Assembly (NCBI GenBank): GCA_028554795.2
Contig: CM068825.1
Location: 152,804,053-152,868,052 of the forward strand
Origin: Sinohyriopsis cumingii
Taxonomy: Eukaryota; Mollusca; Bivalvia; Unionida; Unionidae
Reading direction: 5' to 3'
Length of the DNA: 64,000 bases
Shown here: positions 17,165 to 53,962 of the stretch, one piece after another
How the letters are laid out: each line of letters begins with the position of its first letter
Position numbering within the stretch: the first letter of the stretch is position 1
The notes under the pieces: model-generated
The model's database searches: none
The model's input: only the letters and a program-made list of their open reading frames with translations
What the model was told of the DNA's origin: nothing
Made by a program: the position numbers and the translations under genes

Positions 17165-17180
17165 AGCCCTGAAAAGGGCT
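17165..17180 (-). terminator. Histone-type 3' stem-loop after the 124-aa gene
   Basis: The minus strand reads AGCCCTTTTCAGGGCT, then ACCCA exactly as in histone mRNAs, then TAGAAAAGAAATAA as a U7-like purine element. It lies 33 nt after the stop at 17,213. Confidence 0.9.
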
Positions 17181-17212
17181 GTTCTTTTGTTTGGAACTTC
17201 ATGGACACCTGG

Positions 17213-17587
17213 TTAATGGTGGCACCTTCCAGGCCTGGCGCCGCATACACATCTTATCCCCCAATTACATTTTACCTTTTGGGGGGAGAGAGCAGAGGCA
17301 GGATATGTCGCTTCAGAATCCCAATTTTCGCTCTCTGGGATTCTGAAATTTCTTCTTCTTCTCTCCTTTTCCTCCTCCTCCTCTTCTTTGTATCTTCTCT
17401 CCTCCTCTTTGTATCTTCTTTCCTCTTCTTTATATCTTCTCTCCTCCTCTTCTTTGTTTCTTCTTTCCTCCTCCTCTCTTATCCTTCCCTCCTCCACAAT
17501 GGCTTCCGCGGCCAGTTCATTTAATATGCGCCTGGCATATTCCAGATGCACATGAAGTTCCAACAGTTTCTCCAGTCTCGTGTTCAT
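17213..17587 (-). CDS. Small coiled-coil protein (end-gene family), element B
   Basis: 124 codons from ATG 17,587. The N-terminal ~35 residues form a heptad-like helix with HLEYARRILNELAAEAIVEE. The middle is a long run of E/R/K-rich repeats, EERRYKEEE, predicted as a single charged helix. It ends with RCVCGARPGRCHH. The protein at 53,053-53,481 in C shares both ends (HLEYARYLLNELTAEA and RCVCGARPGRCHH), so it is a diverged orthologue. A TATA box (17,640-17,646) and a shared upstream box precede it, and a histone-type stem-loop follows. Function unknown; the Cys/His tail could bind metal. Confidence 0.75.
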   Translation of the reverse strand: MNTRLEKLLELHVHLEYARRILNELAAEAIVEEGRIREEEERRNKEEEERRYKEEERRYKEEERRYKEEEEEEKERRRRNFRIPESENWDSEATYPASALSPQKVKCNWGIRCVCGARPGRCHH

Positions 17588-17639
17588 TTTTGATCTTGAT
17601 CAATCAACAAAGGTAGCTGGACTGCCGAACGAGTTTCAA

Positions 17640-17677
17640 TTTATAGTGAAAGCGCGGACGTGAACGAAAACATCCCC
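17640..17677 (-). promoter_or_regulatory. End-gene promoter: TATA plus conserved upstream box
   Basis: The minus strand reads GGGGATGTTTTCGTTCACG, continues TCCGCGCT, then CTATAAA about 55 nt before the ATG. The same box occurs before the other left-end genes at 18,507, 52,697, 53,545 and 54,416. Confidence 0.75.
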
Positions 17678-18037
17678 TAAAAACATAAAATTGATCTTAC
17701 CTAGATCATGACCATAAAACAACGCGCCGACCTAAAAGAAACACTCACTCACTTTTTTATGCTACCCATCACTATTTTAAAATTTTTTTATAAATCACTT
17801 CAATAGACTATCCACATACGCAAAGCAATCCAATCTAACTCCAAATATACACCTCAAACACCAAAAAGACATCATTTTAATCTACTATCCATACCAACTT
17901 ACTTAACCACTTACAAACACAAACACACAAACACATACCCTCACATTTTTTTAAAAAAGAGTTAGTGTTTATTTTCACACTACTCTACCTACACACATTG
18001 GCAAATCGATTGTTATTTCTTTTCTAGAGTATTGGGT
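17678..18037. other. Spacer between end-gene modules of B
   Basis: AT- and CA-rich non-coding DNA. At 17,955-18,030 it repeats the 3' flank seen after other stem-loops (TTAGTGTTTATTTTCACAC, TTGGCAAATCGA). That flank includes a minus-strand AATAAA, which may be a backup poly(A) signal. Confidence 0.6.
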
Positions 18038-18053
18038 AGCCCTGAAAAGGGCT
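18038..18053 (-). terminator. Histone-type 3' stem-loop after the Gln-rich gene of B
   Basis: AGCCCTTTTCAGGGCT on the minus strand, followed by ACCCA and TAGAAAAGAAATAA. It lies 33 nt downstream of the stop at 18,086. Confidence 0.9.
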
Positions 18054-18085
18054 GTTTTTTTTTTTTGTTTGCTATGGCATTCTTT

Positions 18086-18442
18086 TTAGTTTCTAAGAAT
18101 GCGATGTCCTCTGAGGATAGACTTTCTGGCGATAGGTCTGCTTCTTCGAAAAGAGAAGAAGAACTCTTTGGTGTCGATACGACAATCGACAAAGCCTCTG
18201 TCAGCTTCAGGTTGCTGCTGCTGCTCTTGTTGTTGTTGTTGCTGCTGTCTCTGAAGTCTGTACTTCTCTGTCCATTCTTCTTTTTCCCTGTTCATTTCTT
18301 CTCTGAAGAGCTCTTCTATCAGGTCTTCAGTGATTTTTAACATTCTCACATTCTCTATTTCTTCTGGCTTCGGTATCAGACTGTGTCTGACCCTATGCAA
18401 ATTCACGTAGGCTTCGTTGAGTTTAGCTAGTTTGGAGCACAT
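18086..18442 (-). CDS. Small Gln-rich helical protein (end-gene family), element B
   Basis: 118 codons from ATG 18,442; the longer open frame begins only with TTG. It begins MCSKLAKLNEAYVNLHRV, has an acidic helix (EDLIEELFREEMNREKEEW), a polyglutamine tract of about 12 residues and a charged C-terminus. The C copy at 53,992-54,351 is nearly identical apart from polyQ length, so the gene is under constraint or very recently shared. It has the shared end-gene promoter and a histone-type 3' end. Function unknown. Confidence 0.75.
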   Translation of the reverse strand: MCSKLAKLNEAYVNLHRVRHSLIPKPEEIENVRMLKITEDLIEELFREEMNREKEEWTEKYRLQRQQQQQQQEQQQQPEADRGFVDCRIDTKEFFFSFRRSRPIARKSILRGHRILRN

Positions 18443-18506
18443 CTTCTTAGGAGGATGAGTCGACAATGGATGGTTAGACTGGAAACAACCCGGTTCTTAA
18501 AGTCAA

Positions 18507-18534
18507 AGCGCGGACGTGAAGGAAAACATCCCCC
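18507..18534 (-). promoter_or_regulatory. Conserved end-gene upstream box
   Basis: Minus strand GGGGGATGTTTTCCTTCACG then TCCGCGCT, with a TATA-like CTTTAAGAA at about 18,495-18,504. Identical in form to the box at 54,416-54,443 in C. Confidence 0.7.
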
Positions 18535-18873
18535 ACACGGTTTTTGAGTCGCAACGTTTAGTGAGTGTCATGAGAGGGATAGTAAGAAATGAAAGAGCAT
18601 CAATCCAACATTCTTATAGCTAAACAAAAGACAAAGGCATTTTTTTCAAAACACAACATTTTTTATTCAAAAATCACTTAACACTAAACAACAACTCTAA
18701 CATTTTTAACAATAATCCAACAATATAACATCAAACAATTTTTTCAAAACACAACATTTTTTATTCAAAAATCACTTAACACTAAACAACAACAACTCTA
18801 ACATTTTTTAACAATAATCCAACACTAAAAGTTTCTCCACTAGGTAAAGAGGGATAACAGTCTTCCATGGTTT
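18535..18873 (-). other. 3' flank of the B virion block; deletion scar with duplicated poly(A) signals
   Basis: Two tandem copies of a ~95-bp segment each carry a minus-strand AATAAA (18,662-18,667 and 18,760-18,765), the likely poly(A) signals of the late block. Next to the capsid stop, about 40 bp (18,830-18,869) match the first codons of the Cys-rich gene at 55,736 of C. Thus ~1.1 kb with most of that gene and the whole protease gene is missing from B. Confidence 0.8.
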
Positions 18874-20187
18874 CTAGTAATCTAAGATGACTTCTCTCAA
18901 ACTGTTGATTTCTATGGTATTATCGAATTCTGCATACAGGATGACGTTCACCGTTTCATCAGGGTCTCGGTTTGCAAACTGAATTTCCACACGAATCTGG
19001 CCGGATTTTATAGGGTGGAAATGTCCCTCGTCGCTGCCTTGGTCTGGAGTGAAATCGAAAGCCCACAAAGCGTAGCCTCCTGCATAATCCTCGTACGTAA
19101 TACCGTGACTGGTATTGGTTCCTAACTGTCCGGTGGCTTCGTACAGGGACAAGTACGATCTCAAGTAATTCTTCTTGGTAAAGTCAGGTTCGAAAGGTCG
19201 GGTACACAAGGTCTTGCCATCGCGACTGACTTCGATTTTGGACACGCCAAAGTGTTGAAAGTAGAAAGGATTTTTTTCGGCAGCTCCGTTGAAGGCTGTA
19301 TTCTCGACGATACCAACGATCAAACGTTTGGGTAACTGTCCTTGGAACAGATGATCTTCGATCATGGATCGCTGTCCCTTGGGAATGGTGAAGGTTTTCA
19401 CTTCCACGCGTCGTATGGGATACTTGGCAGTCGTTCTGCTCAACGTCTGACTGATGTCGTTTCCCACTTTAGGTAACACTTCCACACGGCGTACGTAGAG
19501 TCTGGCTTCTAGGATTTTGGTTTTGTAACCGTCACTATGTGCCATCAAATGGAAAGCGGCACTGCTACGATTCAGTCTCAGGCGGACATCCACCCCGTTC
19601 AGCAAATACTTTTCTTGCAACCACATGTCCAAATGCAAACGATCCATCAGTTCTAAACTTGTGTCGGCTCCCGTGATTCTCTTTCTTCGTTCTACAAATC
19701 CATCATTGTTGTCTTTCTTTTCATCAGTTTCCAATATTTCAAACTTGGTAGGTTCGTCAGCTTCCCATACCACACAGGCATTGAGATGAGTGTTCTTGGC
19801 ATCTATTCCGTACGTCAAGAGATTTTCCAGGTAGGCACGATAAGGGTAAGTATCCATGCTGCTACTGACCAGTTTGTTATTCAAGTACAAGTCCACTCCA
19901 CTGAACAAGGAATGCATGAAATTGTTGACGGGAGCAACTGCTTCATCGTCTATAGCACCTCCAGTCTTATCCAGAATTTTGACTTTCAGGTACAAGTAAC
20001 TGCTATTCAGATCGATGTAATCTTCGGGCTGTCCTTTGATTTCAAACTCGATGGGAGCGGAATCGGTCAATGAGGAGACGGGGTGAAATTCCACCCACTG
20101 GGATTCTTGCATCGTCATCATCGTGGGGGGCATGGCAAACAGATCCAGTTCCGTCTTGGAACAAGCGCAAGATTCTCGGTGCATCAT
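18874..20187 (-). CDS. Major capsid protein (double jelly-roll hexon), element B
   Basis: 437 codons. It begins MMHRESCACSKTELDLFAMP and contains WVEFHPVSSLTDSAPIEFEI, DYIDLNSSYLYLKVK and PVNNFMHSLFSGVDLYLNNK. These are the signature segments of Polinton/adintovirus hexon proteins, often database-labelled F54H12.2-like. Trimers of this protein build icosahedral capsids. The ends are almost identical to the C protein, while two internal stretches (about residues 70-80 and 135-165) differ strongly. It lies last in the minus-strand virion block, with poly(A) signals beyond. Intact. Confidence 0.92.
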   Translation of the reverse strand: MMHRESCACSKTELDLFAMPPTMMTMQESQWVEFHPVSSLTDSAPIEFEIKGQPEDYIDLNSSYLYLKVKILDKTGGAIDDEAVAPVNNFMHSLFSGVDLYLNNKLVSSSMDTYPYRAYLENLLTYGIDAKNTHLNACVVWEADEPTKFEILETDEKKDNNDGFVERRKRITGADTSLELMDRLHLDMWLQEKYLLNGVDVRLRLNRSSAAFHLMAHSDGYKTKILEARLYVRRVEVLPKVGNDISQTLSRTTAKYPIRRVEVKTFTIPKGQRSMIEDHLFQGQLPKRLIVGIVENTAFNGAAEKNPFYFQHFGVSKIEVSRDGKTLCTRPFEPDFTKKNYLRSYLSLYEATGQLGTNTSHGITYEDYAGGYALWAFDFTPDQGSDEGHFHPIKSGQIRVEIQFANRDPDETVNVILYAEFDNTIEINSLREVILDY

Positions 20188-20203
20188 TTTTTTGTCTCTT
20201 TTC

Positions 20204-20620
20204 TCAATAATCGAAAACGTCTAAGTCTCGAACGGTTCTTCTTTTCTTGGCCTTTCTCGCTTGAAGTCTGGTGAAAGGGTGTTTTCTTCGTCGTCTCTTT
20301 CTGCCTTGTCCTTGCTGAATGCCTGACTCGGTAGCGTGCAGGGCATTTATAGGTGTTTCTCGGTGACCCAAAATGTCTTTGCCCGTTTGCAGCAAGACAT
20401 TTTTGCCTGCCCTCATGAAGGCTTCTTTAGGGTTTTGTTTGTCGATGATGACATTTTGGAGAAATTCTTTGCCTTGCGTCAGTGCCGCATCTTTCAAGGC
20501 GTGCAATCCGCGTGTCACCATCGGTTTCAACACCGGGGCCACCGAACGAAAGGCCGATTTTAACATATCTCCTAAACCGTGTCCTCGCTGTCGAGCAACC
20601 CCTCGGTACACTGGATACAT
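20204..20620 (-). CDS. Basic core / minor virion protein, element B
   Basis: 138 codons. The N-terminus has RGHGLGDMLKSAFRSVAP, an amphipathic stretch follows, and the last third is very basic (GRKRRRRKHPF, ARKAKKRRTVRDLD). Such a protein next to the hexon gene is typical of Polintons and recalls adenoviral core or cement proteins (pX, pVI). DNA condensation or membrane activity is inferred. It sits 16 nt upstream of the capsid start and 3 nt after the penton stop. The C copy is over 95% identical. Confidence 0.75.
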   Translation of the reverse strand: MYPVYRGVARQRGHGLGDMLKSAFRSVAPVLKPMVTRGLHALKDAALTQGKEFLQNVIIDKQNPKEAFMRAGKNVLLQTGKDILGHRETPINALHATESGIQQGQGRKRRRRKHPFTRLQARKAKKRRTVRDLDVFDY

Positions 20621-20623
20621 GAC

Positions 20624-21547
20624 TTACGAATCGTGAGAAAACCGTTTTCGAAAATGGAGTTTCACCGTGACTTTTCCTTTGGTGAATGGAATATTTTGTC
20701 CCAAATCTCCTTTTATAGTAATGTTGACCGTGTCCAAATACGACTTACTGACAGGCAAATAGTGAGGATGTACAAATTCGCGGTGGACGTGGTAAGTGTT
20801 TCCACCTTCCTCGTCAGTGTTCGTGCCAGAATCCACTTTGAAAGGAATGACACGCAGTAACGGTACGGAGGTGTGTCCCACCACGTTATACTCCACCACA
20901 TCGGAGTACACAAACATCAAATTCAGTCCTTGGTTCAGTTCTACCGGGGCACGAAATAACTTGCTAAAAGACTCGTTGTCGTAAACGATGGGTAATTCGC
21001 TTTTCTTCATCATGCTCATTCTCAGGTTCATGTCTCCGCCCAACATGTCATACAATTCAGGACAAAATAAAATGGACATGATTTTACTCCGTTCAAATTT
21101 CATCAAGAAGCGACGAGCTGTTTTGTGGTACTCCATGGTGACACTTTTGTTAACATGCTCCAAAGCTTTCAGAAACACGGCATTAAACCTGGAGGCTATG
21201 GTGCTGACCAAATGTTGACCACTAAAATAATAGCCTGGGGAAATGAACAAGTGATAGGTGGTGTACTTATGTGTACGGGTTTTCTTGTCATATTTGACAT
21301 TGCTATCCATCCACTGTTGCAATTGTTCGTCATGAACTTCCACATCAAAAAAATTTTGATTGGGAAGGACATTGAGGACTTGGGTCGGGTGAATCATTTC
21401 TACTAAAGCCACTTCCCAATGGGATTCGTGATCTAAGGGCATGGCTTGAGGTAATTTGGCCGTGTAACAGCACAACGTGTTCTTGGGAAACACCTCCATG
21501 GAACTGTCACTGGGTAAGGTTAAGTAAAATTGGTTTTGGTGACTCAT
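20624..21547 (-). CDS. Penton-like minor capsid protein, element B
   Basis: 307 codons. The N-terminus has FYLTLPSDSSMEVFPKNTL, then YTAKLPQ and HWEVALVEMIHP, the signature of the Polinton minor capsid protein proposed to form a single-jelly-roll penton. N- and C-termini match the C copy closely, while the middle (about residues 55-195) is strongly diverged. Its start overlaps the stop of the preceding membrane-protein gene as ATGA. Confidence 0.8.
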   Translation of the reverse strand: MSHQNQFYLTLPSDSSMEVFPKNTLCCYTAKLPQAMPLDHESHWEVALVEMIHPTQVLNVLPNQNFFDVEVHDEQLQQWMDSNVKYDKKTRTHKYTTYHLFISPGYYFSGQHLVSTIASRFNAVFLKALEHVNKSVTMEYHKTARRFLMKFERSKIMSILFCPELYDMLGGDMNLRMSMMKKSELPIVYDNESFSKLFRAPVELNQGLNLMFVYSDVVEYNVVGHTSVPLLRVIPFKVDSGTNTDEEGGNTYHVHREFVHPHYLPVSKSYLDTVNITIKGDLGQNIPFTKGKVTVKLHFRKRFSHDS

Positions 21548-21966
21548 AATTCCAGAGTTCTGTGGCTGTCTGAGGGGTTACTGAACGTCAGAGGCGTGTC
21601 TCCGCCCAAAATGGGGTTCTGGTTGTGGTTGGAGTGGTGACTGGCACTGGCACTGGACACAAGGTTCCCGTGGTTCCCGTTGGAGGTGAATTTCAGGGAG
21701 GGATTAGGAAGCAGGTAACCGATGCAACTGCTCAATAAAATGGTCCACAATTGTTTGTCTCCTTGTTGCAAACTCAAATTGGCGATGGCTGCCCCGATGA
21801 CACAATACACCACGAAGATTTGGCAGAAAAAGACGATTTGCGTTTTAGGCACACGTTCTCCACACCACACCCACAAGGGTTGTTTTTGTAAATCTTGCAC
21901 AGAAGAACTGGGTGAAGGAGGAGTGGTCGACGTAGCTGCGTCTGTGTGAAAAGGCATGATGGTCAC
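21544..21966 (-). CDS. Membrane protein with two hydrophobic segments, element B
   Basis: 140 codons. Ser/Thr/Pro-rich N-terminus, then LWVWCGERVPKTQIVFFCQI and a hydrophobic segment, a short NLSLQQGDKQLW linker, a second hydrophobic stretch and GYLLPNPSLKF. The CGERVPKTQ...LLSSCxGYLLPNP pattern recurs widely between integrase and penton genes of Polintons. The function is unknown, possibly a virion membrane component. It overlaps both neighbours by 4 bp (ATGA). Confidence 0.7.
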   Translation of the reverse strand: MTIMPFHTDAATSTTPPSPSSSVQDLQKQPLWVWCGERVPKTQIVFFCQIFVVYCVIGAAIANLSLQQGDKQLWTILLSSCIGYLLPNPSLKFTSNGNHGNLVSSASASHHSNHNQNPILGGDTPLTFSNPSDSHRTLEL

Positions 21967-23072
21967 TTCTTTTTATAGTCGATGACTTGCGAAGCGTCGA
22001 TCCAAGAATCAAAACTGGGTGGATATCCTTTCCAACGTACTTTGACTTCTTTGACACGTCGTTTGCCCACTTTACGGGTTCTGCGTTCGAGAATGCCTTC
22101 GATGTCGTACACGTCGTCTTCTTTTTTGGTGACACGTTGTAACTCAGGCCAATAAAACGTTCCTTTGAGCACTTCCCCGTTCATGTCTTCCAATTTATAG
22201 ACGGCAGGATGACGGCCATGCACTCGTCCAGTGACGCGAAACAATTCGGTCGTCCAGTTAGGTAAGTAACCTTTGTCGAAAGTGCGTTTGGTTTTGCCAA
22301 TGCGCACCCAATCTCCTACGGCCAACATTCCACTTTTCTCGGGGACAGCCCTCGTCAGGGACGTACCAAACAGACGCTCAAACACCAACACTTCGTTGTC
22401 GGGAGTCACGTCTTGCGGTGCACGTCCGATGCTTCGATGGTAAGATTGGTTGTACGCTTGCACCAGGTGCGGTAAGATGTCGATGTACTTCAGAGTGTGG
22501 TGATGCGTAAAATATTTCCACATGCGTTCTTTCAAAGTGCGTTGAAAACGTTCCACGATGCTGGCTTTGGTTTCGGGATTCTCGGTGGTAAAAAAATGAA
22601 TGTCACGTTTCTTTAATTCTTTTTGGAAAGCTTGGTTCAGAAATTCGGTGCCTTTGTCCGTTTGCCATCGAAGAGGGTGACGACCGCTTTGTTTCAACAC
22701 CCGTTGCAGGGCTCGCACTAACTCGCTGATCGATTTGGAAGTCAAGGGCACGACCCAGGCAAATTTGGAAAAGACGTCGATGACACAAAACAAATATTTG
22801 TAGCCACGATTGTAGCTGGCCAAATGAGAGACATCGGCTAAATCGGCTTGCCATTGATGATCGATGCCTTCCACTCGGGTGCGACTTCTGGCAAACTTGC
22901 GTCGAATGGGTTTGTGTAAAGTGTAGGTAGCTTGTTCTTGTAACCATCGTTGCACTTGAGGTAAACGGAGACTTTTCAGTCGCGTTTTGGCAGCACGATA
23001 CAATTTTTGAACTCCTGCGTAACCTGCAGGATGGGAGGGATCGTAGTAAATGCTGGCTAAGACTTTTTCCAT
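21963..23072 (-). CDS. Retroviral-type DDE integrase with chromodomain, element B
   Basis: 369 codons counting from ATG 23,072; the longer frame starts only with GTG inside the upstream gene. The RVE core shows D77 (QADLADV), D139 (QTDKGTEF) and E174 (SIVERFQRTL), a D,D-34-E spacing. A C-terminal chromodomain (about 310-365) has DVYDIEGILERRTRK and VRWKGYPPSFDSWID. It inserts the element into host DNA with 6-bp duplications, and the chromodomain may steer it to methylated histone tails. Intact and close to the C copy. Confidence 0.95.
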   Translation of the reverse strand: MEKVLASIYYDPSHPAGYAGVQKLYRAAKTRLKSLRLPQVQRWLQEQATYTLHKPIRRKFARSRTRVEGIDHQWQADLADVSHLASYNRGYKYLFCVIDVFSKFAWVVPLTSKSISELVRALQRVLKQSGRHPLRWQTDKGTEFLNQAFQKELKKRDIHFFTTENPETKASIVERFQRTLKERMWKYFTHHHTLKYIDILPHLVQAYNQSYHRSIGRAPQDVTPDNEVLVFERLFGTSLTRAVPEKSGMLAVGDWVRIGKTKRTFDKGYLPNWTTELFRVTGRVHGRHPAVYKLEDMNGEVLKGTFYWPELQRVTKKEDDVYDIEGILERRTRKVGKRRVKEVKVRWKGYPPSFDSWIDASQVIDYKKK

Positions 23073-23092
23073 TTTTTGTGTTGGTTGGTGTG

Positions 23093-23740
23093 TTAATAAG
23101 ACACCCACTCTTGGAGGATGCTACTCTTTTTCTCTTGGGGTATTTTCTTGGATTGCAATGCTTTGCGTGTGCGGCCAGCAATAGGTGTCGAAAAGGAGAA
23201 GGATGTCTGAGCGGGGGATATCGGTTCTTGTTTCACTTCTGTCTTCACTTCTGTCTTCACTTTCTTTTTCTCTTGTGAGGAAGAAGGGGTGGCCATCATC
23301 TTTTTAATCCATCCAATTCTGGAGGTAGGTGGTGTTGTTCACTTGCGTACTTTTTCTGGTGGAGTTTGAAACCCTTCCTCTTCTTCTTCTCCTTTTTCTG
23401 TCTTGGTCACTGGTGCTGGTGGTACTGGTACTGGTACTGGTACTGGTGATGGTGCTGGACTTTTCATCAAGGTCTTAAAATCTTTCAGAGTGGGTAGAGC
23501 TGTTTCGTCTAAAGCTTTCTGGTGAAAGAGTTGCAGTCGTTGCAAGAGTTGACCGTACTTTTGCGATTTTTCTGTTTCGGACAAATCTTGGCGATCCATC
23601 AAGGACTGCAATTCGTGTTGTAACTGGGACATCTCGCTCAAATGGGGATTGGGAGGTAAATGCGGGGTGTGTTGTTCTTGCCACCGATGGTATTCCATCC
23701 ATCGTTTGTAAGGCACTAAAGCTAGTTTTCGTCCTTCCAT
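23093..23740 (-). pseudogene. Pro/Lys-rich virion-associated protein, interrupted by TGA, element B
   Basis: The C copy (59,972-60,688) is one 238-codon frame. B has the first 133 codons (MEGRKLALVPYKRWMEYHRW...), a TGA at 23,339-23,341, then the same frame continues to EWVSY at 23,093. An internal stretch is also shorter than in C. The N-terminus carries an LxLVPYxxW motif seen in other Polintons, followed by a Gln-rich coiled coil and Pro repeats. A weak TATA (GATAAAAA, 23,786-23,793) lies about 50 nt upstream. Function unknown; a scaffold role is possible. Confidence 0.7.
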
Positions 23741-23788
23741 GGGGTTGTCAGGGGTCGATTCTGAGATCTTGGAACTTCCGAGGCCTTT

Positions 23789-24175
23789 TTATCTTGCTCC
23801 CACCAGTCCTCCCAACATGGTTCCCAAGACTCCTTTCAGTATGGGGCCTAACAAGAGAGGTAAAATACCTCCACGTTGCACTAACATCTTCTTTTTTTGA
23901 CGAAGGGGAATTTTCTTTTGAACCATTTGGCGAAGAACGTGACGATGTTTGCCTAAGCATTGTTTCTGGTGTTTGGACAAAGGGATCGTGCCTTTCAAAA
24001 CGTTCAAACAACATTCGCACACGGTATCGATGACCTCTTTGGAGGCCGTTTGAATGAGTTTTTTTCGTAGGGGTGGAGAAGCTTTGGACAGGACAGATAA
24101 CATGTCCCCATGTTTGGCTAAACGTGGTGGCAGTCCTTTCCTTTTCTTTCCTTGGGGTTTTCTGGAGGGTGACAT
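23789..24175 (-). CDS. Basic protein with hydrophobic Gly-rich tail, element B
   Basis: 128 codons from ATG 24,175 (MSPSRKPQGKKRKG). This start was chosen because TATAAAAAAGG lies ~60 nt upstream, and the earlier ATG would fall at the cap. The middle has EVIDTVCECCLNVLKGTIPL, then KKKMLVQRGGILPLLLGPIL and GTMLGGLVGAR. Such small proteins are common in Polintons. The tail looks membrane-active, like adenoviral pVI, but this is inferred. The helical region and GG motif resemble the neighbour at 24,234-25,154. Confidence 0.7.
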   Translation of the reverse strand: MSPSRKPQGKKRKGLPPRLAKHGDMLSVLSKASPPLRKKLIQTASKEVIDTVCECCLNVLKGTIPLSKHQKQCLGKHRHVLRQMVQKKIPLRQKKKMLVQRGGILPLLLGPILKGVLGTMLGGLVGAR

Positions 24176-24233
24176 CTTTGAGTCTTCAGGAGCACCAAAA
24201 AACACTGATACCCGACTTGGTCACAGGCCTTTT

Positions 24234-25154
24234 TTATACTGGAACGCGTCGCCACTGATTGTCTTTACGTCGTATTAGTTTGAGGACAGGCATGACACGT
24301 CGTGCAGGGGTACGTAACGGACTAAAACGAGCCAGTTCTTGCTTGGACAAATCCAGTAAACTTTGTAACATGCCCGATCTTTCTTGAACTTTGATTTTGG
24401 GAGACGGTACTTTGTGAGCAGCAGCCACTGCCACTAAATTGGAAGGTCATGCCACTGGGGAAGTTCTTTTGGGGGTCATCAACGAAGAAGTTCTTGGTGT
24501 GATCAACGTCTCCAAGTACTCTTCAGTTCTGGGTGTCATTAACGGAGAAGTGGACAAACGTGAGGCTGCCGGAGACGCAGTCACCGCCGTGGCAGGTCGT
24601 GGTTTGCGAGTGTAAGGTTGCGTCCTGGCCGAAGTGCCTCTCTTGCGACTAGTTTTCTGTGGACTTTTCTTTTTCTGGGGGTTTCTTTTCTTTTTCCGGG
24701 GTGGTGGTGGTGTCTGGTCAGAGGAGGGTCCTGCCACTGGAGAAGTTCTCCTTGGGGACCTGGTCTTTTTCTTCTTGGGGCTTCGTTGGACTTTTGTCTT
24801 GGGTATAACTTTGGGGGCATTAGGATCCCATCTTAAGAGTGAGCGAATGATGACCCCTCCTAGAGTACCGCTCCCTCCAGGTTTCAAAATGATTTGTTTT
24901 TTGGTTTGAGTGTCGATGCGGGGATCGGCCAGTTGGACCAAAGCGACTTTGTTTCGATCGAAAAAGCGTTTGGCTTGATGAGGAATCTGAATGATTCCTT
25001 GGAGTAATTGACGTGCCGTCACCGTGAACCATCGTAAGACTTCTTTGAGACTAGCTTCTAAGACACGAGCTCGTGTTTGTGGATCTTTTTCTCGACTGAT
25101 GCCATACAAGGCACGAATCAATTTGACGGGAAGATGCGGCTGAAGGGACGTCAT
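24234..25154 (-). pseudogene. Basic Ser/Pro/Lys-rich protein, interrupted by TGA, element B
   Basis: In C this is one gene (61,183-62,130). B has 235 codons, then TGA at 24,447-24,449 where C has GGA. The frame continues to 24,234 with VRKVMPVLKLIRRK-like ending. The N-terminal ~110 residues are helical (LIRALYGISREKDPQTRARV) with KQIILKPGGSGTLGG. A long KKKxxSP-rich region follows, probably DNA-binding. TATAAAAA at 25,194-25,202 lies ~45 nt before the start. The start MTSLQ is supported by this TATA. Confidence 0.75.
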
Positions 25155-25208
25155 GTTCGCACTGGAGTGAGACAGACGAAAAAGGGTCTGAGGTTTTTAT
25201 AGATTTTT

Positions 25209-25952
25209 TTATGGGGAGTGAAATGAAGTCGAGGACGGAGACGTGTACAGGACAGGCCCTCCGTCTTGGCACCAGTGGTGAAACAAGTGGGTACGAAATC
25301 GCAAATCCTCGGGGGTCGTAGGTTTCCAATCGACGAGTAAATAGGCATGTGGAGTTTGAGTGGCATCGTCGTACGCCTGAGTCAGCCAAGGCGTTCCTAA
25401 CTGTTTGGCTAAGACTTGCACTTGCGATTTATCTCGAGGGCTTTTAAACAAGACCACGTAATGCGCATTGAGACTGATGGTGCGATGGGCTTTACTTTGT
25501 TGAAACAAATTTTGGGTGATGTAAACGACACTGGCATTACGGTGATGCCCTTTGCGCGTGAACCACAGTTTAATTTCTTCTTCGTCTTCTCCTAACAGGT
25601 CGTCGAAAATGACCAAATGGGTTTGACGGGAGTCAGAGACGATGCCGTCGTCTTCTTTAGGAATGCCTTCCACAAACACGATGGAATTGCCTTGACTTTC
25701 TCGCAAGAGGCTGTAAGCCGATTGCCACTCTTTGTAACACCACACGATTCGTTGAGGGGGTCGATCGATCAAATGATGTTTATGTTCGATCAAACGTTTG
25801 ACGAATTCGGTTTTGCCTGAACCGCTAGGTCCAGCAATGAGCATGTTAAAGGGATGGCGAAGATACAAAGCCTCCCAACTGCCACGATCTAAGTGTTCGT
25901 CGATGACTTTGACAGTAGAGGAAGAGGGAGCAGAGACAGCAGAGGTAGCCAT
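25209..25952 (-). CDS. DNA-packaging ATPase (FtsK/HerA, A32-like), element B
   Basis: 247 codons from ATG 25,952, placed ~50 nt after a TATATAAA box (26,000-26,007); the longer frame begins too near that box. Walker A GPSGSGKT is at 41-48, Walker B HLVIFDD at 112-118, and SVVYITQN at about 141-148 is the motif-III Gln/Asn. This is the genome-packaging ATPase of adeno-like double-jelly-roll viruses and Polintons. Nearly identical in C. Confidence 0.93.
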   Translation of the reverse strand: MATSAVSAPSSSTVKVIDEHLDRGSWEALYLRHPFNMLIAGPSGSGKTEFVKRLIEHKHHLIDRPPQRIVWCYKEWQSAYSLLRESQGNSIVFVEGIPKEDDGIVSDSRQTHLVIFDDLLGEDEEEIKLWFTRKGHHRNASVVYITQNLFQQSKAHRTISLNAHYVVLFKSPRDKSQVQVLAKQLGTPWLTQAYDDATQTPHAYLLVDWKPTTPEDLRFRTHLFHHWCQDGGPVLYTSPSSTSFHSP

Positions 25953-26035
25953 GGTGTGAGAAATGTCACTTGTGACACGAAAAACAAACAAGACAAGAGT
26001 TTATATACTTTTTCAGAACACGTTTATTGAATGTT

Positions 26036-26323
26036 TCAAACATGAATACGAAAGGCAAAAATACATAAAAGCCAAAGGCTTAAGTACAAGAATAAAAGGC
26101 ACATGATAACCATGAACGTGGAATAAACACAAGTGTCTGTACAACATGTTTTGGGTAAAGTTCTAACCAGTTCTATAGTAGGGGGTAAGGTCACACAAGT
26201 GTCCTCCCGAAAGGGTCTTTCAGGCCTGTCCACGACAGTCCTGTCCTGGGTGACGGGTTCTTCTGGCACCGTCACTACCACAGGTTGAAAAGTAACTTTT
26301 TTCCTTGAATAACTCTCGTGCAT
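26036..26323 (-). CDS. Small protein with C-terminal transmembrane segment, element B
   Basis: 95 codons from ATG 26,323, the start conserved with C (MHxSxSRKKVTFQP). An open frame continues to ATG 26,443, but that N-terminal part has no match in C. PEEPVT and FREDTCV segments are followed by a Cys-rich KTCCTDTC and a hydrophobic anchor (about 25 residues), ending RIHV. A minus-strand AATAAA follows at 26,023-26,028. Likely a membrane protein of unknown role. B seems to lack upstream genes that C has here. Confidence 0.6.
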   Translation of the reverse strand: MHESYSRKKVTFQPVVVTVPEEPVTQDRTVVDRPERPFREDTCVTLPPTIELVRTLPKTCCTDTCVYSTFMVIMCLLFLYLSLWLLCIFAFRIHV

Positions 26324-26447
26324 ACTGGGCCACCTCTTGTGTCCAAGCCTCAGAACCCTGGTCTCGGTGATGTCCAACATTTGACTCCTAACCAATCTGG
26401 TTTCTTCTTCGTCAACGACATGGTAAGTTACTTCAATGAACAATGAA

Positions 26448-29400
26448 CTATCGATCTTGCCGAGGTTTCCATTTTATATACAGACCAATACCGACGTGAC
26501 CGTACGGTAAGGTGAAGTGATTGGGAAGTCGCACTCGCTTCTGGTATACAATTTGATAGACTTTTTCCAAGGGTCGACTGACGATGTGGTGAGTGGGTAA
26601 ACGTACAATCTTGTTCGGTTGATAGGTGGTCACTTTAAAGTTTCCATCCTCTCCCGATTGCAAGGCATCTTTTAATACCCCACAGTTGACCACTCGACTG
26701 GTACGATGATTCAGAATCAGTCCTTTCACTTTGCACGTCGTGTGCACTTCTCCTTGTTTGTCCCGGTATTCGTAACCGTAATTTTTGGGACCACCACTGA
26801 CGAAACTTAAAATCTTGTCGTCGGGATGCTCGTCTGTCCAGGCTCCTAAACGGTCTCCTTCGATGTCAGAGTGCTGTTGAATCGGGTGATGGATGTAAAT
26901 GCAACTGTCCGTGTCAAAGTACAGGACGCGTTCTTCTAACAGTTCTAAAGCTTCGTACAATTTTAAGCGAGCATGAGCTGTCACGTAAGCCGCAATGATG
27001 ACATTTCCAAAAGGGTCCTCTTGTACAAAGTCCAGATCTTCTTCGTAATTGACCAAGATCAAATCCTCTCGAACGACGTCCACGTGTTTCATGTATTTGG
27101 TTTTGTCGTGAATCATCTGGAAGTAGCGTGAAGGTTCTGTCAAATATTCCGTCTTGGGTAAACACGGTCGTTGTGCCATTTTACCCCACAAGCAATTTAA
27201 CATCACTTTGGCAAACGATCGCCTGCCTTCGTTTTTCTCGATGTGGTCTAAAGAGATGCCTTCTTGTGCATAGTATTTCTCTTTGAATTGTATTTGGTCT
27301 TCGGGAGTGTGACACCAGGAAGGATAGCCGCTGGCTTCTTGTCTCAGTTTCAAAAAGGCATCCACGTAGTCGGCGAAAATGCCTTTCTGAGTAGGGTCAC
27401 CCTTGTGGTACTGTTGTGTCTTGGGAAAGTGGCAAATTTCGTACACTTCTAACAGTTGGTATCCCATGTCCAGAGCTTTGAACAATTCTACGCTGACCCA
27501 GGTTCCCGTCAAGGCACGTTCTTCCTGGCTGTGATGGCAAGGTTGGTCCTGGTTGCACGTTTCGGCACAAGTACGGCACAAGGGAAACATCAGTTTGCCT
27601 TGACAATGGTGAGGTAAGACGGGATGGTATAGGTTCGTGGGAGGCAAAACTTTACACTTGATCAAGCCTTCGTATTGTCGAATGTTGACCAGGTCGATGT
27701 GTTCCGTCAACAATTGCGGGTGCCCTACGGGAAAGCGACAATATTTGCACACGTAGGGATACAGCGAACACATGTCCAAGTATTTGATTTCTTCTCCTTT
27801 CTCTTCGTCGGCTTGGTACAGCAAACAGGTGGCATTGGTCCTTCCTCCGTACAAACTATCCCTCGGGTTCAACGGGTCCATGAACTGGTAACTTTCCACG
27901 AGGCGTTTAAACTCGGGATCGGTTTTCAAACGGTGATCGTACTCGTGTTCCCACATTTCCACCACTTGGTATCCTTGCTGTTCTAACTTTAGGCGTCGCT
28001 GACAAGTGTCCTGGTACAAGTCTTCCATGGTTCGTTGCAAAAACTGATTTTTAGTGTCACGGTCAGGGTAACAGACGGGACATCCGTGAAATAAGCAACC
28101 GTTAAACTCGTACACGATCTTGGGGTTTTCCAAGTCCCAGCCATCTACCGAATACGTTCCGATGGTCTTTTCGCCTCCTCCGTTGCGGACATGCTGAATC
28201 CATTTGTCTTCCTTGTCGCACAAGTAATGTAACCAACGTAGGGCTTTGACCGAATATTGACGCTTGACATAGTGGGTCGTTTGAGGACTGATGACAGCCA
28301 CGGTGTTTTCAGGCATGAATCTTTGGCGGTACACTAAGGAACACGCTTTGGCAATGGTGCAAGCTTCTTTCAAAGGATCGACCCCTCCGTGTTCCATGAA
28401 CAGTTCTCGAAATTTTCCACAGCAACGTCGTAAAATGTCCACGTCGGAACGACAATACTTTAACATTTCTTCCTGAAAGTCGAAGGGGTCAGAGGCATGA
28501 GCCTGGTACCAAGCGTAGAAAGCTTCTCGTTGTTCGGTACGCATGTTGTCGGGGTCGTAATAGTGAGCCTCAGATGAATGGGGTAGAACGGCATGTTGAT
28601 TGGCTTCCGTATTGAAAAAGTGTGGAAAGTACCCTTTAGCCATTTCTGTCATTCCAAACGCTTTAGGCATTCGACTCAAAGGCATGGCCAAGTAACTCAT
28701 CGAATCTTTAAACTGTACTTGTCCCACTTGCATGAAAATGATTTTGGCTCCGTTCAAAGTGACTTTAGGACGTTCGGTGCCTTGTTCCGTATAGTATCTG
28801 AGAAGAAACTGTCCATCGTATCCGGAGAAATTGTGAGTCATCACCGTGGCATGACGATGACAATCTCCGTAACGTTCGATGTCCTCTTGGCTCCACGTCT
28901 TGTCGATGGGATCTAAGATCCATTGGGCAAAATCGGCTAACGTGTTCGGTCCTCGAAAGATTTTTTCACGCCCTCCAGGAATCTTGCTGCAGTGAGGGCA
29001 ATGACTGAAGATAGGTTCTCGAATGCACTTCTCGCACGCTCGATGAGCCACGCAGAAATTAGGAATGTGAATGCCAGTCTCTTGCATGCATTCGAAATCG
29101 AAAAAGATGAAATTGCCTTTCTTCTTGTGACCGTCCTCTTTCTCTGGTGGGGGTTGGTATTTTTGCACGTAGCATTCGTGTTTCAAGTCCACGATGTGGT
29201 GACAAATGTGACATTTTTTCTTTCCTGAACATACGTGTGCCTTGGCATTATTGGTACGTAGGCCTTGTCGACACGTAGGGCACAGTCTCAGCAGTTGACA
29301 AGCACATTTCTGCTGTGAACCTTGCGTCTTCAGATGTTGTTGGTAACAGGCAGGGCTGACAAACGTGCGCAGACAAGCAGGACAATGTACTCTTTCTTGT

Positions 29401-30521: not shown

Positions 30522-30569
30522 CTTGAGTGCAAAACGTCAAATGGCTCAAGTTTAAACACCATAGACTAA

Positions 30570-30600
30570 TTTATAGTCTTGGCAAACCAGCGTATATATT
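30570..30600. promoter_or_regulatory. Divergent core promoters of polymerase and zinc-knuckle genes
   Basis: Minus-strand CTATAAA (30,570-30,576) faces the polymerase start. Plus-strand GTATATATT (about 30,592-30,600) lies ~30 nt before the other start. The two TATA boxes are ~20 bp apart. Confidence 0.65.
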
Positions 30601-30627
30601 CATTTCACTCTCAAGCCGAGCACAACG

Positions 30628-31098: not shown

Positions 31099-31101
31099 AT
31101 A

Positions 31102-31203
31102 ATGAGAAAGAAGAAGTGTACGAACTTTTTAAAGTGTTCTGTGGTGAATTGTGAATTGGATTGTAAAAAATGGATAAAAGAATACATGAATGATATAAGG
31201 TAA
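31102..31203 (+). CDS. Possible 33-aa Cys-rich ORF
   Basis: ATG 31,102 to TAA 31,201-31,203, three bases after the zinc-knuckle stop. It has four Cys in a K-rich peptide. AGGTAAGT at its end also looks like a splice donor, so the stretch may instead be 3' UTR or an exon edge. Weak support. Confidence 0.25.
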   Translation: MRKKKCTNFLKCSVVNCELDCKKWIKEYMNDIR

Positions 31204-31361: not shown

Positions 31362-31388
31362 TTTTTTCTTTATGGTGTAGGAGTGAGT

Positions 31389-31948: not shown

Positions 31949-31989
31949 GTTGAATCACTGTCGCATAGACTGACTGCACACAAGCGCTA

Positions 31990-44704: not shown

Positions 44705-45370
44705 ATGGAAAGCACTGACTTTTCTGCAACAAAACGACGAGAACCAGTTAAGCATCACGCAGCGCTACCAAATTCTGTTCGTATGATTATTATAGGTCCA
44801 TCTGGAAGTGGCAAAACACAGTTGCTACTTAATTTAATAATGAAATGGATGAAGTGGGATAAATTATATTTGGTAGCACCATCTGTAGACGATCAACGTT
44901 GTTATGATGTAATAAAAGATTATAATGAAAGTGCAAATTGGTAAGTGAAGATGGAGATGATGTTGTTGAGTTTATTACCGACATTAATGAAGCACCAAGT
45001 ATCGATTCTATTGACGGATCAATAAACAATTTAGTTGTGTACGATTATATTATGCTGGATAAACAATCAAATCCTGCCAGGATATTTTCCAGAGGTAGAC
45101 ACAAAAACACGGATGTCATTTATGTAACCCAGCGATACACACAAATTCCTAAAGTAATCAGGGGATAACTGCAATATCTTGGCTGTTTTTAACGGAGTGG
45201 ATACACATACACTGAGAAATATACATCAGACTTGGTGTAGCGGTGATATGGACATAAATAAATTTAAAAATTTCTTTAGTGGTGCTAAAATAACTCCGCA
45301 CGGATTTGTAACTATAAGTTTACATGATCCTCGAACACGGTATAGAATTGGGTTAGATAAAATGTTTTAA
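44705..45370 (+). pseudogene. Packaging ATPase (FtsK/HerA type), two frameshifts, element A
   Basis: From ATG 44,705: Walker A IIIGPSGSGKTQLLLNLI near residues 28-45, then a stop at ~44,942. Another frame (44,938-45,168) has Walker B-like NLVVYDYIML and the sensor VIYVTQRYTQ. A third (45,179-45,370) has the C-terminus with ITPHGFVTISLHDP. It is divergent from the PLA2 gene, with TATATA between them at ~44,690. Dead copy of the packaging motor. Confidence 0.82.
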
Positions 45371-45375
45371 TTAAC

Positions 45376-45626
45376 AGCAGCAGGGACGCGACGACAACGA
45401 CTTGGGTTCATTTCGTAATCGAAAAGCCATGAATGAATTTTTTTCAACCAAAAAATCATATTTAAACTAACTCGAGAGAAACTCTTGGGGTTTTCTTTTC
45501 CTCCTAAAGTTCCTCTTGAAACGTAGTCGATAGTTTATTTCCCATTTAAAATCCTTATTTTTTTGGAGGGTTTATTTCGACCTTTGGAACCTCCTACATT
45601 TTGTAGGGTTCGCCGTCCCTGCTGCT
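45376..45626. repeat. Right TIR of element A
   Basis: Inverted match of 12,874-13,121, with the same self-inverted ends (AGCAGCAGGGACG inside, CGTCCCTGCTGCT outside). Confidence 0.95.
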
Positions 45627-51248: not shown

Positions 51249-51933
51249 TTAGCACATCAACACTATTCCTGGCTTTCTGGCACATCAACACATTCAGTAC
51301 TGGAATGAATTCGGAACACCACTGGGATTCATTCGGAATAATCTATAATTTTGAACTTGTAACATAACTCTTAGGACTATTTGGGATTTAATACACAATA
51401 CTGCAAGATCGAAATTTTCACTTTGTATTAAAAGAAAATGAATTATTTTTTTAATTTTACAAAACTTGTTGGTTGTCGCTCTTTACCGTTACTCAGATTA
51501 AGACCACAGATTCGTAACACAATCGAAATTAGTGTACAGGATTAGTTACCGAAATAGACTGCAAGTCTGCCAACATATAAAAACTCACGTCTGAATACAG
51601 AAATCAATACTAGTAATCCTTAAAAATATAAACTCGCAATCAGTAAAATCTGTTGCTTAATGATGTTACGCTCTGAATACCGCTGGAACGTTCTGTCATA
51701 TTGTATAGTACCCCCACCCCAGCAATGTTCAATATACTCATCCGCACATAAAATGTGTTAATAAAAATAAAATCTCATTTTCGCATGAAAATTCGCAATT
51801 TTAAATTTGTAAAATGTCGCTGTCCTAAAACTATTAAAGAAACAACTCTAAGCATATGGAAGGTTTTTGCTTTACAAAAAATATTTAATAAAAAGAAAAT
51901 CTACGTTGATGTTAGTAGTGAAGTGGGATACTT

Positions 51934-52121
51934 TACGGACAATGGGAATTAGCATTACAGAGACCCCTGGGACACTTTACGGACAATGGAAATTTAACAT
52001 GGCGAAAAATCGTGGGACACTTTACGGACAAGGGGAATTAACATGGGGAATAAATCGTGGGACACTCTACGGACAAGGGGAATTTAACATGGGAATAAAT
52101 CGTGGGACAATCTACGGACAA
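51934..52121. repeat. Five TIR iterons of element C
   Basis: Core TACGGACAA starts at 51,934, 51,978, 52,023, 52,068 and 52,113, a regular 44-45-bp period. All five share this core, while B uses TAGCGTCAA at the same places. Confidence 0.9.
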
Positions 52122-52211
52122 GGGGAATTTAACATGGGATTTTTTTTTTTAAAAATTTTTTTAAAAAAGGGTAGGCAATGGAAAGGCTATCTCTTTTCGA
52201 GAAATATGGCT

Positions 52212-52227
52212 GGCCCTGAAAAGGGCC
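52212..52227 (-). terminator. Histone-type 3' stem-loop, left end of C
   Basis: Minus strand GGCCCTTTTCAGGGCC followed by AGCCA and CGAAAAGAGATAG; 29 nt after the stop at 52,256. Confidence 0.9.
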
Positions 52228-52255
52228 TTTGGTTTTTCTTCTTCTTCTTCTTCTT

Positions 52256-52636
52256 CTAATTTCTTCTTTTCCTCCACCAACTTCTTATTTTATCTCCAAC
52301 ACTCTTTCTCTTCTTTTTTTTCTCCTTCTCTTCTTTCTTCTCTTCCTCCTCTTCTTCTTTCTTCCTCTTCTCATTTTCCTCTTCTTTTTCAATTTTTTCG
52401 TTCCATGTTCTTATTCTTATCTTTTCCTCTTCATCCTCCTTCTCCTCCTTGATCTCTTTCATGACACCACTAATCTTGTCCTTTGCTTTCCTTAAATTGT
52501 TAATTTCCATCTTTACACGATGGGGACTATAGGAATAATGGTCTTCAACGAGTCTTATTAGCATCTGTTCCATTATTCCTAAGTTGTCTAAAACGTCTTG
52601 CAAGGTTTGTAATTTGTCCATTTGGTTTGACGCCAT
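52256..52636 (-). CDS. Small coiled-coil protein next to the TIR, element C
   Basis: 126 codons from ATG 52,636 (MASNQMDKLQTLQDVLDNLG). A heptad-like N-terminal helix is followed by a very long E/K-rich helix and a basic end (SWWRKRRN). It takes the place that the Arg-rich TIR gene holds in B, so the TIR-adjacent gene has been exchanged while the stem-loop stayed. Two upstream boxes lie at 52,697 and 52,768. Function unknown. Confidence 0.7.
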   Translation of the reverse strand: MASNQMDKLQTLQDVLDNLGIMEQMLIRLVEDHYSYSPHRVKMEINNLRKAKDKISGVMKEIKEEKEDEEEKIRIRTWNEKIEKEEENEKRKKEEEEEEKKEEKEKKKKRKSVGDKIRSWWRKRRN

Positions 52637-52696
52637 CTTCTTTTTATTCTTTGCAGAATGGTTTGAACGACCAACACTGTGGGTTCTTATACGAAA

Positions 52697-52796
52697 AGCG
52701 CGAACGTGAAGGAAAACATCCCCCTAAAAAACATAAAATTGATCTTACCTAGATCATGACCCAACAACGCGCGTACGTGAAGGAAAACATCCCCCT
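52697..52796 (-). promoter_or_regulatory. Duplicated end-gene upstream boxes, element C
   Basis: Two copies of GGGGGATGTTTTCCTTCACG with GCGC-type ends at 52,697-52,724 and 52,768-52,796, separated by a conserved ATCTAGGTAAGATCAAT-like spacer also seen near 17,700 and 53,590. Confidence 0.7.
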
Positions 52797-53010
52797 ACTT
52801 TTTTCATATAATAAAACCCTAACTATACTCTTCACATACGCTAAGAAACCCATAATCTACTATTCACACCAACATACCTCAGCTCTTACTAACACAATCA
52901 CACTAACACATACCCTCACATTTTTAAGAAAGAGTTAGTGTTTATATTCACACTACTCTACCTACACACATTGGCAAATTGATGGTTATTTCTTTTCTTG
53001 AGTATTGGGT

Positions 53011-53026
53011 AGCCCTGAAAAGGGCT
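53011..53026 (-). terminator. Histone-type 3' stem-loop after the 142-aa gene
   Basis: AGCCCTTTTCAGGGCT, then ACCCA and AAGAAAAGAAATAA on the minus strand; 27 nt after the stop at 53,053. Confidence 0.9.
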
Positions 53027-53052
53027 GTTTTTTTAAACTTCAGAGGCCTTGG

Positions 53053-53481
53053 TTAATGGTGGCACCTTCCGGGTCTGGCACCACAGACACAACGTCTACT
53101 CCAATCATTAGTCCAATTCACATGACTTGTTTGAAGAGCAGACGGTGGGTGAGTGGCTTCACTATCCCACTCCTCCGTTTGCGGAATAGTGAACACTTCT
53201 TCCCTCTGTCTTCTTTGTCTTTGTCTTCGTTGTGATTGTGGTTCAGCTACAGGCTGGCAAGATGTCCTTGCCTCAGGTATCACCTTGCACACAGGGTTCA
53301 TCATAGGGTGACACCTGATCTCTCTCTTTCTTTCATTCTCTTCTTTCATTTTTCTCTCCTCCTCCTCCTGTTCTATTCTCACTTCTTCCACAAGGGCCTC
53401 CGCAGTCAGCTCGTTCAGTAGGTATCTGGCATACTCCAGATGCATCTGAAGTTCCATCAATTTAGTCAGTCTGTTGCTCAT
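53053..53481 (-). CDS. Small coiled-coil protein (end-gene family), element C
   Basis: 142 codons from ATG 53,481. N-terminal HLEYARYLLNELTAEALVEE and the C-terminal RCVCGARPGRCHH are shared with the B protein at 17,213-17,587, while the centre is different (charged helix plus Gln/Arg-rich part). TATA at 53,535-53,541 and the shared box at 53,545-53,573. Function unknown. Confidence 0.75.
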   Translation of the reverse strand: MSNRLTKLMELQMHLEYARYLLNELTAEALVEEVRIEQEEEERKMKEENERKREIRCHPMMNPVCKVIPEARTSCQPVAEPQSQRRQRQRRQREEVFTIPQTEEWDSEATHPPSALQTSHVNWTNDWSRRCVCGARPGRCHH

Positions 53482-53534
53482 TTTTTACTGTTGATCAATC
53501 AACAAGGGTAGCTAGACTGCCCAGCGAGTTTCAA

Positions 53535-53573
53535 TTTATAGTGAAAGCGCGGACGTGATGGAAAACATCCCCC
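53535..53573 (-). promoter_or_regulatory. End-gene promoter: TATA plus conserved box
   Basis: CTATAAA (minus strand) ~55 nt before the ATG, with GGGGGATGTTTTCCATCACG and CCGCGCT directly upstream, the same spacing as at 17,640-17,677. Confidence 0.75.
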
Positions 53574-53946
53574 TAATAACATGAAATTGATCTTACCTCG
53601 ATCATGACCAAAATCAACATCAACGCGCGGACCTAAAAGAAACACTCGCTCACTTTTTTATGCTACCCATTACTATTTTAAAATTTTTTTATAAATCACT
53701 TCAATTGACTATCCACATACGCAAAGCAATCCAATTCAATCTAACCTAAAATATATACCTCTAACAGCCAAAAAACTAACATCATTTTAATCTACTATCC
53801 ACACCAACCTATTTTATCACTTTCAAACTCACAAACACACAAACTCATACCCTCACATTTTTTAAGAAAGAGTTAGTGTTTATTTTCACACTACTTTACC
53901 TACACATTGGCAAATTAATAGTTATTTCTTTTCTAGAGTATTGGGT

Positions 53947-53962
53947 AGCCCTGAAAAGGGCT
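53947..53962 (-). terminator. Histone-type 3' stem-loop after the Gln-rich gene of C
   Basis: AGCCCTTTTCAGGGCT followed by ACCCA and TAGAAAAGAAATAA; 30 nt after the stop at 53,992. A minus-strand AATAAA lies ~75 nt further on. Confidence 0.9.

Follow-up and report, generated by a model that had tools for sequence, protein, structure and literature searches.

Polinton elements and their end genes

The window analysed here (64,000 nucleotides (nt) of contig CM068825.1 from the bivalve Sinohyriopsis cumingii; all coordinates are window positions) contains two related Polinton transposons, whose small end genes are followed by a hairpin and a purine box resembling the 3′-end signal of replication-dependent histone genes. 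Element 1 (16001-32725; 16,725 bp) is bounded by terminal inverted repeats (TIRs) of about 0.55 kb with 97.7% identity, its ends begin with AGTAGT, and it is flanked by a 6-bp target duplication, CACATG, at 15995-16000 and 32726-32731. Judged by its PolB, integrase with chromodomain, A32-type ATPase, TIRs and 6-bp duplication, element 1 is a Polinton. Element 2 (51914-64000) has the same AGTAGT start, extends past the end of the window and shares 89.4% DNA identity with element 1 over 7.7 kb of the core.

The genes near the element ends are predicted to encode short proteins. On the minus strand, element 1 has a TIR gene (open reading frame (ORF) 16330-16614, 94 amino acids in the ORF list, the TIR containing a shorter part of it) that recurs on the plus strand at 32180-32395, ORFs of 124 (17213-17587) and 118 amino acids (18086-18442), the latter with nine relatives in public protein sets, and a right end gene with a first ORF of 125 amino acids (31571-31948) and a second frame (31389-31613) ending 27 nt before a hairpin. 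The end genes of element 2, also on the minus strand, comprise ORFs of 126 (52256-52636), 142 (53053-53481) and 119 amino acids (53992-54351, from the ORF list). A Pfam search with seven end ORFs returned sub-threshold matches only and no histone domain (the ORFs at 17213, 52256 and 53053 have no family above the cut-off), and the LXCXE motif occurs in none of eight end-gene frames.

Histone-type 3′ signals in the window

Eight exact copies of RGCCCTTTTCAGGGCY are present in the 64-kb window in a search that allowed up to two mismatches, while 100 dinucleotide shuffles give an expectation of 0.04. Every copy follows an ORF and shares its orientation, with 24 to 32 nt between stop codon and stem, and folds as ((((((....)))))), a 6-bp stem with a 4-nt loop (-9.9 and -8.2 kcal/mol for the two hairpin types). 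The stem is followed by ACCCA in five copies and AGCCA in three, and GAAAAGA(A/G)AT starts 13 nt after the stem in all eight; the box forms that are candidate U7 targets are CTAGAAAAGA and CTCGAAAAGA. An earlier note on this DNA had described eight gene-oriented hairpins at these positions and strands, 25 to 33 nt after the stop and mostly followed by this tail and box. Positions, strands, orientation, tail and box were all confirmed, and the distance from the stop is corrected to the range given above.

The Rfam family RF00032 (Histone3) matches all eight hairpins, with no further match at E<=1 anywhere in the window. Its gathering score of 34 bits is reached by four of them (41.2, 35.6, 35.6, and 35.6 bits); the other four, the copies whose outer pair is A-U, score 28.4 to 31.3 bits (E 4.7e-5 to 5.7e-4). 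In element 1, the signal of the TIR gene spans 16265-16310 on the minus strand (hairpin 16290-16305, box GAAAAGAGAT at 16267-16276; 35.6 bits) and its right TIR copy 32418-32463 on the plus strand (hairpin 32423-32438, box 32452-32461; 35.6 bits). Between them, on the minus strand, are the signals at 17140-17185 (hairpin 17165-17180, box GAAAAGAAAT at 17142-17151; 28.4 bits, below the cut-off, E 5.7e-4), at 18013-18058 (hairpin 18038-18053, box 18015-18024; 31.0 bits, below the cut-off, E 6.4e-5), and behind the right end gene at 31322-31366 (hairpin 31346-31361, box 31323-31332; 41.2 bits, E 9.6e-9). Element 2 has three, all on the minus strand: 52187-52232 (hairpin 52212-52227, box 52189-52198; 35.6 bits), 52986-53031 (hairpin 53011-53026, box 52988-52997; 31.3 bits, below the cut-off, E 4.7e-5), and 53922-53967 (hairpin 53947-53962, box 53924-53933; 31.0 bits, below the cut-off, E 6.4e-5).

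Histone genes of the host

Histone genes of S. cumingii are arranged in tandem units of about 8.3 kb, with 150 matches scored among 662 candidates, so that their number is given as a lower bound only. Two of the units were examined, and each contains five RF00032 matches, all above the cut-off. The H3, H4, H2B, and H2A genes have GGCCCTTTTNAGGGCC 27 to 35 nt after the stop; listed in that order, their hairpins read GGCCCTTTT(T/T/C/A)AGGGCC at 28, 27, 34, and 35 nt, with GAAAAG 13, 13, 13, and 14 nt after the stem. The H1 hairpin, GGTCCTTTTCAGGACC, is a compensated variant. Among named animals, the best relatives of the host H1 and of PolB come from bivalves. A third region, with a lone histone match (on C2), gave no RF00032 match. 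In its stem, loop, box, and spacing, the Polinton signal is thus equal to that of the host histone genes. The features shared with replication-dependent histone mRNA 3′ ends (RF00032; SLBP and the U7 small nuclear ribonucleoprotein) are the 6-bp stem, the 4-nt loop, the ACCCA-type tail, and the purine box 13 nt after the stem, all close behind the stop. Unlike the histone genes, the Polinton end genes encode no histone and belong to a transposon.

Abundance and conservation across the genome

Searches of the genome (2.9 Gb, 1,138 contigs) recovered 56,197 copies of RGCCCTTTTCAGGGCY and 51,498 sites at which GCCCTTTTCAGGGC is followed by GAAAAGA after 14-15 bases, while the reversed-pattern controls returned 0 in both cases. 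About nine in ten genomic hairpins carry the box, the two patterns being not strictly nested. Part of the 56,197 hairpins belong to histone genes, since the H2B hairpin is identical to the G-C type of the Polintons. The genomic places listed are the first 100 per pattern, all on one contig, and among the 100 several groups repeat five hairpins ordered and oriented as in element 1. Division of the hairpin count by five suggests some 11,000 Polinton element equivalents, many of which may be partial copies. The hairpin count points to a Polinton expansion on the scale of ten thousand equivalents in one 2.9-Gb animal genome.

To describe the surroundings of these hairpins, 40 end regions were sampled from the 100 listed places, selected by exact hairpin and not by box. 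All 40 hold relatives of the window end genes, by protein and by DNA. When one mismatch is allowed, they contain 95 hairpins in total, of which 86 are exact, and no hairpin with two to four mismatches plus a box was found in them. GAAAAGA was scored in 94 of these, one hairpin being too near a region end; it lies at +13 in 86 and at +14 in 4 and is absent in 4, compared with a background rate of 0.98 per kb on each strand. In five gene clusters, the mean pairwise identity is 0.98-1.0 within the hairpin and 0.79-0.95 from stem to box, compared with 0.42-0.85 between +60 and +120 and 0.63-0.94 for the coding DNA just upstream. A sample anchored on the upstream motif described below, outside the hairpin list, had the exact hairpin and box at 8/8 sites.

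Conservation of the block also extends across end-gene types. Behind the right end gene, the 45-nt stretch that starts with the hairpin and runs beyond the box is 0.87 and 0.76 identical to that of two other types, with identities of 0.41-0.50 in coding DNA and 0.44-0.49 in the next 65 nt (a comparison with no shuffle control). The 17165/53011 pair has a coding identity of 0.55 and a hairpin-to-box identity of 0.98, and the 18038/53947 pair has a coding identity of 0.95; some end genes, such as the former pair, are therefore far more diverged between the two elements than the 89.4% core. The feature is genuine, present in very many copies, and conserved. A third conserved block, TTTGCC-like, lies at +44 to +55 from the stem start in the 94 copies and across gene types (e.g., 31346 and 17165), and a similar stretch is also found behind the host H2A box.

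A distant Polinton and previous reports

A PolB profile search of prokaryote genome records identified six loci. One of these, L003 (CALIZB010000033.1), is a contig filed in a bacterial metagenome-assembled genome and is evidently stray eukaryote DNA. Because its PolB (37% identity), integrase (35-38%; rve plus a weak chromodomain match), and probable capsid protein (32% over 427 columns to the candidate in like position in element 1) are related to those of the window element, L003 is identified as a distant Polinton. Its hairpin, GGCCCTTATCAGGGCC-ACCCC then AAAAAAGAGAT, scores above the RF00032 cut-off (35.8 bits, E 8e-7) and lies 28 nt after a small C2H2 zinc-finger ORF (PF00096), between the integrase and the end repeats. 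Zinc-finger genes are present in some adintoviruses (PMC11071296). Contamination of this kind in metagenome-assembled genomes is a source of animal-type Polinton DNA.

In transcripts of mimivirus and its virophages, a hairpin after the stop also marks the message end; unlike in the Polinton signal, poly(A) is added at that hairpin and a histone box plays no part. In the open-licence literature searched, we found no description of histone-type 3′ ends on end genes of Polinton/Maverick elements or adintoviruses. The statement in the earlier note that none was known is nearly right, the exception being an uncommented count: a cmscan of 8,300 Polinton-like virus and virophage genomes recovered six histone 3′UTR stem-loops (PMC12220804). 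In the portion of that survey dealing with the scan, the stem-loops appear as a bare count, their carrier genes and hosts are unnamed, and other RNAs are discussed.

Core genes, upstream motif, and neighbouring features

The core genes of element 1 lie on the minus strand, and none has a hairpin. PolB (26448-29687, 1079 amino acids; PF03175, E 6.4e-41, 141 bits) has 975 relatives, and the names among the best 120 listed come from bivalves, other animals, and a coral adintovirus; a PDB search with PolB gave 0 matches. The A32-like packaging ATPase is at 25209-25952 (PF04665, E 1.1e-7, over the cut-off) and the rve integrase with chromodomain at 21963-23072 (PF00665, PF00385). The ORF at 18874-20187 (437 amino acids), with AATAAA 109 nt after its stop, is by size and gene order the probable major capsid protein. 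The candidate capsid proteins of element 1, element 2, and L003 had no Pfam match. In element 2, the ORF at 54666-55232 matches the adenovirus endoprotease family PF00770 with 16.3 bits, short of the 21.3-bit cut-off, and no protease-like ORF was found in element 1. In element 2, the protease-like ORF and another ORF (together 54666-55736) separate the end genes from the probable capsid gene; the corresponding interval of element 1 (18768-18874) is without both. PolB, rve integrase with chromodomain, A32-type ATPase, TIRs, and 6-bp duplication are held in common with Polinton/Maverick elements and adintoviruses, with candidate capsid and protease genes here. The definition of adintoviruses includes a PolB with an N-terminal OTU-like domain (PMC11071296).

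The end genes also share an upstream motif, GGGGATGTTTTCNTTCACGTCCGCGCTTT, with six window matches (up to three mismatches) compared with 0.00 expected. It lies 59-63 bp ahead of the start codon in 5/7 end genes and is found on the minus strand at 17649-17677, 18505-18533, 53544-53572, and 54414-54442, and in two copies (52695-52723 and 52766-52794) within 52695-52794. Genome-wide, there are 14,520 matches (reversed control, 0). The motif may be a promoter element that adds transcriptional co-regulation of the end genes. A CRE site, TGACGTCA, occurs once in the window, before the right end gene, which is at chance level (1.09 expected), and was set aside. L003 has four CRE sites compared with 0.10 expected, three of them ahead of its hairpin gene, which is a lead only. 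Replication-dependent histone genes are unspliced. The right end gene (31389-31948), in which two overlapping frames precede one hairpin and a GTAAGA donor-like site lies near 31675, may be spliced, unlike those genes.

A third, different virus-like element appears to span 12874-45626 and to be interrupted by the inserted element 1 (16001-32725). It is delimited by 270-bp inverted repeats at 97% identity (12874-13140 and 45357-45626) and contains a double-jelly-roll-domain ORF at 14981-16039 (PF21738) and a sub-threshold rve match at 43293-44090 (minus strand). The RF00032 scan of the window (E<=1) found no histone-type hairpin belonging to this element (about 12.9-45.6 kb), which speaks for the specificity of the signal. 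Sub-threshold Rfam matches to mir-297, mir-5014, and similar families at 4.5-5.2 kb were rejected as an ACAT tandem array (4458-5225).

Predicted 3′-end processing of end-gene messages

During the processing of histone pre-mRNA, the hairpin is bound by SLBP and the downstream box pairs with U7 (PMC1924863), and cleavage is reported 5 or 7 nt after the stem (PMC6303110). The identification of the Polinton sequences as histone-type signals, already made in the earlier note, is strongly supported by the Rfam match, by the host histone stem and box spacing, by the 51,498 genome sites, and by the distant Polinton, and it is very likely that the signal is used at the RNA level. Because the layout is that of histone pre-mRNA, the same processing is the likeliest outcome. 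We consider it quite probable that end-gene messages use the host histone pre-mRNA 3′-end pathway, being cut after the hairpin, left without poly(A), and tied to S phase. The action of host SLBP and U7, the position of the cut, the lack of a tail, and the timing are predictions from the layout of the signal, and the linkage to S phase would follow from established SLBP biology.

The Polinton end genes carry the replication-dependent histone 3′-end signal of the host, hairpin and box at histone spacing, and in the proposed pathway the SLBP/U7 machinery of the host would cut their messages after the hairpin. The cut messages would have no poly(A) and would be made mainly during S phase. An element that copies its DNA with its own PolB could in this way make a few proteins only in cells that are replicating DNA, with no cell-cycle sensor of its own. 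In the window, the genes are split into end genes with the hairpin and core genes without it, which have AATAAA at the block end.

Several results weigh against this pathway. Host SLBP was not found by a Pfam profile search of the genome, exon by exon, nor with a human domain query (best E = 2), and host U7 was not found by an Rfam search of the genome. Control genomes were silent too in the Pfam and Rfam searches, so the absence of SLBP and U7 is not shown. A U7 pattern search gave 69 genome matches, whereas its reversed control gave 87. Of the candidate stretches from the 69 matches, 15 were compared with Rfam and none matched, and folding of 27 loci from the same matches produced one with a 7-bp hairpin (L100), which was rejected, the pattern not being above the control rate. 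The hairpin identity in the 40-region sample is biased upward by the choice of exact hairpins, and in one of the five clusters the upstream coding DNA and the hairpin-to-box stretch are conserved to the same degree (0.943 vs 0.954). Pairing speaks for the pathway, since a hand count of the 100 listed places finds the outer pair retained in 97 (62 G-C, 35 A-U), with 3 A-C and 0 G-U; this covariation tracks gene type, however, and may reflect few events. Two hairpin patterns gave 0 matches in a viral contig collection, in which PolB and an end protein found no usable relatives. The scan of other Polintons with RF00032, suggested in the earlier note as a check, was positive in L003, and the other five distant PolB loci had no match at E<=1. 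Their silence is weak evidence against the pathway because one contig holds PolB alone (L004), one is weakly related (L006, 25%), and the rest are partial (the distant PolB contigs are 3.6-18 kb and mostly partial).

Poly(A) signals in the window also bear on this question. AATAAA occurs 51-66 nt after the stem in 4/8 copies (16290, 18038, 31346, and 53947), making poly(A) ends possible for end-gene messages and adding to the points against the pathway. In three other copies, AATAAA or ATTAAA is no nearer than 323 nt, and the hairpin at 17165 has neither within 400 nt. The division drawn earlier, with AATAAA behind core blocks and hairpins behind end genes, thus stands for the core blocks, in which the last stop is followed by AATAAA at 101-109 nt and the hairpin is absent, and fails for the end genes, which are not free of AATAAA. 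The messages might therefore have dual 3′ ends, the hairpin being processed in S phase and a backup poly(A) site serving at other times, giving two message forms. This is a fair rival, which we nonetheless regard as unlikely. It is consistent with the four AATAAA copies and with the histone genes of Drosophila, which in the absence of SLBP turn to poly(A) signals further downstream (PMC1924863), whereas four of the eight window copies have no AATAAA near the box, and of the two TIR copies of one gene, one has AATAAA and the other does not. In Caenorhabditis elegans, AATAAA is found right behind the box of histone genes, yet most messages end three to six nt past the hairpin (PMC1924863), so AATAAA close behind the box does not exclude hairpin ends.

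Alternatively, a histone 3′ end captured once by an ancestral element could have been duplicated with the end genes and hitch-hiked since, the messages being polyadenylated downstream. The near-identical blocks across end-gene types and the same four AATAAA copies would fit such an origin, as would the DNA after the box, which resembles that of host H2A at 3/8 sites tested (seven in the window, one in L003). The shuffle fractions at these three sites (0.01, 0.004, and 0.022 at 17165, 53011, and 31346) are uncorrected for 40 comparisons and are suggestive only. However, the block is conserved where the DNA that follows it has diverged, the box is kept at its spacing in 90/94 hairpins, and the signal is also present in L003, a Polinton with 37% PolB identity, all of which make passive carriage rather improbable. 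Still more improbable is a role of the hairpin in DNA or packaging rather than RNA, for example as a replication or encapsidation mark. The hairpins do cluster near both ends, two of them inside the TIRs, but three of the five in element 1 lie outside the TIRs, all follow gene orientation at 24-32 nt from the stop, and the flanks and box fit the histone RNA model and would be unneeded for a DNA mark. Chance or low-complexity similarity, for which only the short length speaks, is already refuted by the counts (8 vs 0.04 in shuffled sequence, and 0 in the reversed controls vs 56,197 and 51,498) and has a negligible likelihood.

Implications

Among animal protein-coding messages, replication-dependent histone mRNA has been described as the only one known to carry a 3′ hairpin in place of poly(A) (PMC6303110). 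A mobile element that has spread some 50,000 of these signals through a single genome, and has them behind non-histone genes in the 40/40 regions sampled, would end the histone-only rule if the signals work. In practice, RF00032 matches beside Polinton ends provide a simple annotation tool, and the end genes could be missed by poly(A)-selected RNA-seq. The chances seem evenly balanced that a special class of genes, coupled to the histone mRNA pathway of the host, is present in animal Polintons of distant lineages. The hairpin would then serve as an S-phase sensor, with end-gene proteins made just when nucleotides and replication factors are at hand, and, where transcribed, tens of thousands of non-histone hairpin messages could compete for SLBP and U7 with the histone mRNA of the host. 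This raises the question of how the host keeps its histone supply despite many possible competing sites. If the proposed pathway is true, an integrating virus-like element would be timed to host DNA replication via RNA processing.

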